Made by a program: the position numbers and the translations under genes
Part shown: in pieces, positions 46,022-48,109 of the stretch
Layout of the letters: each line of letters begins with the position of its first letter
Numbering within the stretch: position 1 is the stretch's first letter
Notes under the pieces: generated by a model
Database searches by the model: none
What the model was told of the DNA's origin: nothing
Seen by the model: the letters and a program-made list of their open reading frames with translations, nothing else
Assembly: GCF_942548115.1 (NCBI RefSeq)
Contig: NZ_OW824151.1
Span: 496,001 to 560,000, forward strand
Source: Aeromicrobium sp. Leaf245
GTDB taxonomy: Bacteria; Actinomycetota; Actinomycetes; Propionibacteriales; Nocardioidaceae
Length of the DNA: 64,000 nucleotides
Reading direction: 5' to 3'

Positions 46022-46027
46022 TACGCT
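46022..46027 (+). promoter_or_regulatory. -10 element TACGCT of the trp leader
   Basis: TACGCT ends six bases before the leader peptide ATG, so the attenuator transcript should itself be leaderless, with the first ribosome loading at base 1. Confidence 0.6.
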
Positions 46028-46033
46028 GGCGCC

Positions 46034-46072
46034 ATGATCGTCGTTCCCACCCCCTGGTGGCGCCTCCTCTAG
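46034..46072 (+). CDS. trpL: trp operon leader peptide with tandem Trp codons
   Basis: A 12-residue frame MIVVPTPWWRLL with adjacent TGG TGG codons (46055-46060), 96 bases before the fused anthranilate synthase. This is the classical arrangement for ribosome-mediated attenuation: when charged tRNA-Trp is scarce, the ribosome stalls at the two Trp codons and the downstream terminator is not formed. The stop codon TAG (46070-46072) lies in the middle of the perfect 18-base palindrome 46062-46079, so a ribosome at the stop would disrupt it. Confidence 0.85.
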   Translation: MIVVPTPWWRLL

Positions 46073-46125
46073 AGGAGGCCTCGACGCGACCCACGCCCAG
46101 ACCCCTCAGCCGAGCGGTCTGGGCG
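46062..46125 (+). terminator. trp attenuator hairpins
   Basis: Two stems follow the Trp codons. The first, GCCTCCTCT/AGAGGAGGC (46062-46079), is a perfect palindrome with the leader stop at its centre. The second, CGCCCAGACC (46094-46103) with GGTCTGGGCG (46116-46125), is a perfect 10-bp stem with a 12-base loop followed by TTCTCC, a weak pyrimidine run. The second is the probable terminator. The competing antiterminator pairing is not resolved by eye. Confidence 0.75.
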
Positions 46126-46168
46126 TTCTCCGTCCCGGCGTCGGCCGAGGCGACCCGAAGGACACACC

Positions 46169-48109
46169 ATGACCCACCCGCTCGTCGGCGAGCTCCAGCA
46201 GCAGGCCGCGTTCGCGCTGATCCGTGTGCGCGACAGCGACACGGTGACCCTCCTCGGTGGCGCCTTCGAGGACGTCGAGGACCTGGCCGACGTGCCCCTG
46301 TCGGCCGGTGTCCCCGACCGGCTCGGCGGGGGTGCCGGGCCGCGGGCGGCTGGTGGCGGAGTGTGGGACCACCTGGTGCTGGTGCCGTTCCGACAGGCCC
46401 GTGAGCGCGGGTTCGCCGCGCACGACGACGGCACCCCCCTGCGCGTGGTGAGCGCCGACGTCCTCCACGAGGTCCCGCTGGCCGACCTGCTGCCGACGCT
46501 GCCAGACGGCGGCGTGCAGCTGGCCGACCGCGGCGGCTTCGAGACGTCCGACGCCGACTACGCCTCGATGGTGCGCCAGATCATCGACGACGAGATCGGC
46601 CGCGGCGAGGGTGCCAACCTGGTGATCGGGCGGCACTACCGGGCGAAGGTCGCCGACTGGGGCCACGACGCCGCGCTGGCCGTGTTCCGTCGGCTGCTCG
46701 AGCGCGAGCGCGGTGCGTTCTGGACGTTCTGCATCTTCACCGGCGACCGCTACCTCATCGGCGCGAGCCCCGAGCGGCACGTGAGCGTCGAGGCCGGCCA
46801 GGTGCGGATGAACCCGATCAGCGGCACGTTCCGCACCAAGGGGCTCACGACCCACGCCGAGAAGACGTCGGCCCTGCTGGAGTTCCTGCGCGACGAGAAG
46901 GAGATCTACGAGCTCTTCATGGTCGTCGACGAGGAGCTCAAGATGATGTGCGACATCTGCCACGAGGGGGGTCTCGTGCTGGGGCCGTACCTCAAGCCGA
47001 TGAGCCACCTCGTGCACACCGAGTACCTGCTCGCCGGTCGCACGGACCGCGACGTGCGCGCCGTGCTGCGCGACTCGATGTTCGCCGCCACGGTCACGGG
47101 CAGCCCCGTGGAGAACGCCTGCCGGCTCATCGAGCAGTACGAGGCGCACGGCCGCGGCTACTACGCGTCGGTGGCCGCCCTCGTGGGCCGCGACGCCGAC
47201 GGGCTGCAGCGCGCCGACGCGCCCATCCTCATCCGCACGGCCGACGTCGACCTCGAGGGCAACCTGAAGGTCACCGCCGGGGCCACGCTCGTGCGCGACT
47301 CCGACCCCGACTACGAGACCGCCGAGACGTGGGCCAAGGCCTCGGGCGTGCTGAGCGCGTTCGGCCTGGTCGACGCGCCGGCCCCCGCCACGGGCGGCGC
47401 GCCCGACACGTTCGACGCGTTCACCCGGGAGGACGACGTGCTCATCGCCCTCGGCGAGCGCAACGCCCGGCTCAGCCAGTTCTGGCTGTCGGACCAGTCC
47501 GGTGCCGCGCCCGAGCCGTCGCTGCAGGGCCGCAGGGTCGTGGTGGTCGACGGCGAGGACGACTTCGTCAACATGCTGTCGCACGTGTTCGGCGTGCTGG
47601 GCATGAGCACCGACGTCGTGCGCCACGACGCCTACCGCGCCTGGGTCGAGGGCGGGCGTGCGCTCGACGAGTACGACCTCGTGGTCGTCGGTCCGGGCCC
47701 GGGCGACCCGCGCGACGTCGGCGACGCCAAGATCGCGGTCCTCGACGACGTGGTGGTCGACCTGCTCGCCTCGGAGCAGCCGTTCCTCGCGGTGTGCCTG
47801 GGTCACCAGGTGCTGAGCCGCAACCTCGGCCTCGACGTCGACTTCAAGGACATCGTCTTCCAGGGCACGCAGTCGCGGCTCGACGTGCTGGGCAGACCGG
47901 AGACGGTGGGCTTCTACAACACGTTCGTGGCCCGCGTCGGTGCGACGGGCCTGCCCGCAGGCGTCTCCGTGGAGCGAGAAGAGGCGACCGGCGACATCCA
48001 CCACGTGGCCGGTCCGCACTTCCACGGCATCCAGTTCCACGCCGAGTCGGTGCTGACCCAGCGCGGGTTCGCCATCCTCCGCGACCTGGTCCTCGACCTG
48101 CTCGGCTGA
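46169..48109 (+). CDS. Fused anthranilate synthase components I/II (TrpE-TrpG; PhzE-like)
   Basis: A 646-residue fusion. Residues about 1-440 are the chorismate-binding TrpE part, with GERHVSVEAG-like SPERHVSVEAG and MNPISGTFRTKG. The glutamine amidotransferase TrpG part (about 455-645) has GPGPGDPRD, nucleophile Cys543 in CLGHQ and the His/Glu in HGIQFHAES. The NPISGT wording is closer to PhzE (ADIC synthase) than to ordinary TrpE (NPIAGT), so the product could be anthranilate or 2-amino-2-deoxyisochorismate. The Trp leader argues for anthranilate. GAAGG precedes ATG 46169. No phenazine genes are near. Confidence 0.9.
   Translation: MTHPLVGELQQQAAFALIRVRDSDTVTLLGGAFEDVEDLADVPLSAGVPDRLGGGAGPRAAGGGVWDHLVLVPFRQARERGFAAHDDGTPLRVVSADVLHEVPLADLLPTLPDGGVQLADRGGFETSDADYASMVRQIIDDEIGRGEGANLVIGRHYRAKVADWGHDAALAVFRRLLERERGAFWTFCIFTGDRYLIGASPERHVSVEAGQVRMNPISGTFRTKGLTTHAEKTSALLEFLRDEKEIYELFMVVDEELKMMCDICHEGGLVLGPYLKPMSHLVHTEYLLAGRTDRDVRAVLRDSMFAATVTGSPVENACRLIEQYEAHGRGYYASVAALVGRDADGLQRADAPILIRTADVDLEGNLKVTAGATLVRDSDPDYETAETWAKASGVLSAFGLVDAPAPATGGAPDTFDAFTREDDVLIALGERNARLSQFWLSDQSGAAPEPSLQGRRVVVVDGEDDFVNMLSHVFGVLGMSTDVVRHDAYRAWVEGGRALDEYDLVVVGPGPGDPRDVGDAKIAVLDDVVVDLLASEQPFLAVCLGHQVLSRNLGLDVDFKDIVFQGTQSRLDVLGRPETVGFYNTFVARVGATGLPAGVSVEREEATGDIHHVAGPHFHGIQFHAESVLTQRGFAILRDLVLDLLG

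Follow-up and report, generated by a model that had tools for sequence, protein, structure and literature searches.

The trp leader peptide of Escherichia coli is encoded behind a 5′ UTR that carries a ribosome-binding site. In Corynebacterium glutamicum, all attenuators analysed by Neshat et al. in 2014 are reportedly leaderless. Classical attenuators were predicted in 2005 for the trp genes of Corynebacterium and Streptomyces (PMC1262725), a paper that also cites earlier experimental studies, among them that of Lin et al. (1998) on S. venezuelae and others on C. glutamicum. By RNA-seq, TrpL1 of S. lividans, which precedes a monocistronic trpE, was found to be leaderless, and in the same species the transcription starts of LeuL1, LeuL2, IlvL, MetL, ThrL and TrpL2 coincide with the leader start codon or lie no more than 1 nt from it (PMC8079986). 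At the C. glutamicum ilvBNC attenuator, transcription start and leader start codon are one nucleotide apart (PMC11857589), and in S. meliloti the attenuated RNA ahead of the fused trpE(G) begins with the trpL ATG (PMC7298713). An earlier note on the DNA analysed here had called a leaderless leader peptide an unusual setting for attenuation. Given the starts mapped for S. lividans TrpL1, C. glutamicum ilvBNC and S. meliloti trpL, this view is not supported: leaderless attenuation is the usual setting in this phylum and a normal design in actinobacteria and rhizobia.

The DNA analysed (the window) is a stretch of 64,000 nt from Aeromicrobium sp. Leaf245 (GCF_942548115.1, NZ_OW824151.1, positions 496,001–560,000 of the forward strand). 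Its −10 element, leader ATG, Trp-Trp leader, palindrome and second hairpin, as described in the earlier note, were all found in place and, with the enzyme gene behind them, are given below in window coordinates.

46022–46027, + strand: −10 element TACGCT, separated from the leader ATG by 6 nt; transcription predicted to start at or very near A46034
46034–46072, + strand: leader ORF MIVVPTPWWRLL and stop, 12 codons, ATG at 46034, without a Shine-Dalgarno sequence
46055–46060, + strand: tandem Trp codons 8 and 9, the sensing codons; Trp-to-stop spacing kept among relatives
46062–46079, + strand: hairpin 1 (protector), arms GCCTCCT and AGGAGGC, loop containing the stop codon; paired arms with covariation
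46070–46072, + strand: leader stop codon TAG inside the palindrome (read from the sequence)
46072–46082, + strand: predicted 5′ half of the antiterminator, the hairpin 1 3′ arm plus downstream bases; pairs with 46100–46107 in the constrained fold
46093–46126, + strand: terminator hairpin ACGCCCAGACC / GGTCTGGGCGT; covariation, about −26 kcal/mol
46100–46107, + strand: predicted 3′ half of the antiterminator, overlapping the terminator 5′ arm; constrained fold and conserved pairing
46157–46162, + strand: Shine-Dalgarno sequence GAAGGA of the enzyme gene (read from the sequence)
46169–48109, + strand: fused anthranilate synthase (trpEG), 646 aa, PhzE-like; PF00425, PF00117 and PhzE 3r74 matches

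Positions 46062–46079 form a perfect 18-base palindrome, GCCTCCTCTAGAGGAGGC, which as RNA folds into seven base pairs around a 4-nt loop, and the terminator arms (46093–46103 and 46116–46126) comprise 10 bp and one closing A-U pair.

We consider it very likely that this arrangement is a ribosome-mediated transcription attenuator before trpEG, sensing charged tRNA-Trp and having a predicted leaderless start. Anatomy, conservation, covariation of the two hairpins and constrained folds were computed, and from them we infer the transcription start, ribosome stalling, termination and Trp response. RNA polymerase would start on the leader ATG or one base from it at most, and the ribosome would load at the 5′ end of the mRNA. 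With Trp scarce, the ribosome would stall on codons 8 and 9 and mask the 5′ arm of hairpin 1, so that the freed 3′ arm (46072–46082) could pair with 46100–46107 and block the terminator, allowing trpEG to be transcribed. With Trp plentiful, the ribosome would reach the stop codon within hairpin 1 and cover the arm, or depart and let hairpin 1 form; the terminator at 46093–46126 would then form and transcription would stop.

To compare relatives, the homologous locus was drawn from 80 genomes, nearly all of them named Nocardioidaceae. The window and 27 of the 80 genomes (mostly Aeromicrobium) share one layout, consisting of a TANNNT box, 6–7 nt, an ATG or GTG start, a Trp-Trp leader and the hairpins. 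In all 28 layouts compared, the first hairpin lies over the stop codon and the second is GC-rich. The leader peptides have 10–18 codons; their Trp-Trp pair is invariant and the N-terminal part varies freely in sequence and length, with the distance from the first Trp codon to the stop being 15 nt in 25 of the 28 loci. In loci L004 and L005, the enzymes are 90–91% identical to that of the window and the terminator is nearly identical, while the N-terminal part of the leader differs (GTG start, VTSRCDRT.VIRWWRPL, compared with window positions 46034–46072). This comparison points to a fast turnover of the leader N-terminal half and the promoter region, as far as can be judged from sequence.

Covariation was computed on an alignment of 27 sequences (A1), which was used because an automatic longest-stem search misplaced the hairpins in a few relatives; the shuffles serving as control ignore the relatedness of the sequences. 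For hairpin 1, the protector, which overlaps the last part of the leader ORF, compensatory changes were present: 96% of the cells were paired, 13 two-sided changes were counted versus 3.9 in shuffles, and the covariation score of 0.348 (0.148 when shuffled) was lost when the partner was slid. The terminator was paired in 89% of the cells, with 15 two-sided changes versus 4.9 in shuffles, four pairs showing such changes and a covariation score of 0.176 versus 0.076 when shuffled. Behind the terminator, the T-run of the window (TCTCCGT) is poor and that of several relatives stronger; a generic terminator scan missed the site in the window. For the antiterminator, 92% of the cells in A1 were paired, and its covariation was not above that of the shuffles, most of its bases hardly varying. 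Within the GAGG class, antiterminator partners from one species paired no better with each other than with partners from the main class.

For the constrained folds, the ribosome was placed with the second Trp codon in the A site and the polymerase just past the terminator 5′ arm, the leading edge of a ribosome being taken to lie at a distance of about 15 nt from the P-site codon's first base. Under these constraints, the helix between the hairpin 1 3′ arm and the terminator 5′ arm was the minimum-energy structure in nearly all of the 27 sequences. In the window, a ribosome on Trp codon 9 left 46072–46082 paired with 46100–46107 at −11.4 kcal/mol; once the ribosome was moved to the stop codon, the antiterminator helix was unavailable and only the terminator formed. 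The terminator of the window (about −26 kcal/mol) is roughly twice as stable as the antiterminator (about −11 kcal/mol), and the means over the 27 sequences are −22.5 and −11.0 kcal/mol, respectively, with the terminator being more stable throughout. The antiterminator must therefore win kinetically, acting before the terminator is completed. Separately, a CUG directly 3′ of hairpin 1 (46080–46083, GGTGGCCTGTCG; A1 columns 74–76) is nearly invariant although outside the leader ORF. It pairs with the CAG of the terminator 5′ arm and lengthens the predicted antiterminator, the window keeping only part of this extension. The claim of a trp attenuator thus finds support in a short Trp-Trp ORF before a Trp biosynthesis gene in 28 loci, in covarying hairpins and in a mutually exclusive antiterminator fold.

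Analysis of the promoter revealed TANNNT 6–7 nt before the leader start in 28 of 28 leader-bearing loci. Since the start codon was picked by requiring TANNNT 4–9 nt upstream, the presence of the −10 box is partly built in; outside that selection stand the finding of a box for every Trp-Trp leader, the restriction of all spacings to 6–7 nt and the conserved bases beside the box. As background, TANNNT occurs 6–8 nt before 0.5% of the ATG and GTG codons in the window. Upstream of the −10 box, conservation drops to background within a few bases in the leader-bearing loci. A leader ORF without a Shine-Dalgarno sequence and with TANNNT at 6–7 nt has the leaderless actinobacterial layout, for which the rule is 5–7 nt (PMC8079986). 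Three features, namely the spacing of the −10 box, the missing Shine-Dalgarno sequence and the conservation, place the predicted start on the leader ATG or no more than a base away from it; as predicted from sequence, the mRNA very probably opens with the start codon of the leader peptide. The view of the earlier note that, by promoter spacing, the leader has no 5′ UTR is upheld as a prediction on the same three grounds.

The fused enzyme was found at E ≤ 1e-100 in 143 of 395 genomes of the class. At 47 of 53 leader-free loci (L021, L027, L031 and within L036–L083), TANNNT lies 6–9 nt directly before an in-frame trpEG start codon, and trpEG itself is predicted to be leaderless there. These loci include most Nocardioides and Marmoricola and the Aeromicrobium-group loci L021, L027 and L031. 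The attenuator looks like a cassette that is cleanly absent from these loci, with the leaderless promoter layout retained. Among the distant actinobacterial loci sampled, 14 of 20 had TANNNT, 6–8 nt and then an ATG-initiated Trp-Trp or Trp-Trp-Trp leader; one of these leaders, MFAHSTQTWWWTAHPAAH, is nearly identical to S. lividans TrpL1, MFAHSTRNWWWTAHPAAH. Because the leader is present in these more distant actinobacteria, loss of the attenuator in the leader-free relatives is more likely than its gain elsewhere.

A covariance model whose training set comprised the window itself and its relatives gave one strong site in the genome, located before trpEG (81.6 bits, E 1e-15). The next-best match (24.8 bits) fell on the near-palindromic terminator of this site, read from the other strand, and no convincing second copy of the element was found in the genome with this model. 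In the family, the Aeromicrobium-element model matched 38 of 150 genomes, generally once per genome, 33 of them belonging to the genus of the window and five to one other genus. A second, weak match in one genome (G467) was rejected, as the surrounding sequence has neither a leader-like layout nor a recognised trp gene. An Rfam search of the region, trp leader included, returned chance-level matches only, and inspection of the other trp and chorismate loci of the genome for Trp-Trp leaders gave nothing convincing. Scanning for the pattern −10/RTG/TGGTGG produced 42 matches versus 22 for the reversed control; the one match that was translated (L138) runs on as a long open frame.

The enzyme behind the switch combines a chorismate-binding domain (PF00425) with a C-terminal glutamine amidotransferase domain (PF00117), and its best PDB match is PhzE 3r74 (E 5e-139). 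Its scores on the rhizobial fused TrpE(G) models TIGR01815 and NF010081, 151 and 166 bits, fall short of the respective cut-offs of 739 and 645. Apart from it, just two chorismate-binding enzymes are encoded in the complete genome; one, with aminotransferase class IV and glutamine amidotransferase domains, looks like a PabB-PabC-PabA fusion and the other like an isochorismate synthase. The PabB-PabC-PabA fusion has 916 aa (G000:C1 736000–742000; L086:2169–4919). The genes trpC, trpB and trpA sit together elsewhere in the genome, trpC and trpB being named from their own sequence, and one of two phosphoribosyltransferase-family genes should be trpD. As the genome's only candidate beside these pathway genes, the fused TrpE-TrpG enzyme most likely supplies anthranilate for tryptophan. 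The description as a fused PhzE-like anthranilate synthase fits the domains and the closeness to PhzE, anthranilate synthase being the likely function.

A true PhzE, that is, a 2-amino-2-deoxyisochorismate synthase serving a secondary metabolite and not Trp, would agree with the nearest solved structure being PhzE and with a score far under the TrpE equivalog cut-offs. However, the enzyme is the only anthranilate synthase candidate in a complete genome having trpC, trpB and trpA, it is adjoined by an M20 peptidase and an EamA transporter and not by a phenazine cluster, and its leader has tandem Trp codons, which makes this function very improbable. The tandem codons also bear on the idea of a constitutive partial terminator behind a spurious ORF, in which the peptide and its Trp codons would have no regulatory role. 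The thermodynamic advantage of the window's terminator over the antiterminator speaks for it, but an invariant Trp-Trp pair beside a freely changing N-terminal part, a nearly fixed Trp-to-stop distance and the covariation of hairpin 1 leave it hardly any likelihood.

It could also be that the attenuator is real and its mRNA carries a 5′ UTR, with transcription starting farther upstream and the leader being translated without a Shine-Dalgarno sequence. No −35 element was recognisable and a sigma-70 scan made no promoter call at the leader site, as would suit such an upstream start. Yet the −10 box at 6–7 nt is the only conserved upstream element across the 28 loci, its spacing matches the −10-to-start spacing measured in Streptomyces (mean 6.3 nt, PMC8079986), the DNA upstream is almost completely diverged, and leader-free relatives place the box just before the start codon of trpEG itself. 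A 5′ UTR is improbable on these grounds, and a leaderless attenuator remains the preferred reading.

We conclude that the locus represents a well-supported, conventional mechanism and an ordinary new example of it, which leaves the known mechanism unchanged. A trp attenuator is described across Aeromicrobium, its structure showing good covariation and having no match in Rfam, and the leaderless design seen in attenuators of Streptomyces, Corynebacterium and rhizobia is extended to the Nocardioidaceae. A bolder proposal, which we regard as unlikely, is that the leaderless start is a functional requirement, with loading at the 5′ end setting the timing between ribosome and polymerase, and not a by-product of a leaderless-rich lineage; on this proposal, the attenuator of Nocardioidaceae would behave as a cassette that can be removed from between a −10 box, which stays fixed, and a start codon, trpEG being either attenuated or itself leaderless. 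The attenuator-free relatives (Nocardioides and some Aeromicrobium) offer a convenient comparison for the role of 5′-end ribosome loading in timing.

Among known systems, the locus resembles the Streptomyces trp attenuators (S. venezuelae and S. lividans TrpL1-trpE) in its tandem Trp codons, its predicted leaderless leader (mapped as such in S. lividans), its hairpins with a terminator and its monocistronic anthranilate synthase; in the genomes sampled, a related fused enzyme (~50% identity) stands behind a near-identical Streptomyces-type leader. It differs from them in having WW in place of WWW and in its leader and stem sequences. With regard to the described motif gGCC-rGCy-GGCC (PMC1262725), reading A1 by eye revealed GGCC to end hairpin 1 in most sequences, the other elements being different in the window. 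A leaderless Trp leader before a fused trpE(G), predicted here, is shared with S. meliloti trpL-trpE(G). That system is alphaproteobacterial, and the present enzyme reaches only 151–166 bits on the TrpE-clade3/PRK13566 models (cut-offs 739 and 645). Leader-peptide attenuation is common to the ilvBNC and trp attenuators of C. glutamicum, which, in contrast, precede multigene operons, sense other amino acids at ilvBNC and have different structure sequences. With E. coli trpL, the locus shares the logic of protector, antiterminator and terminator as well as tandem Trp codons; unlike E. coli trpL, it has no predicted 5′ UTR with a ribosome-binding site and no match to the Rfam trp leader.
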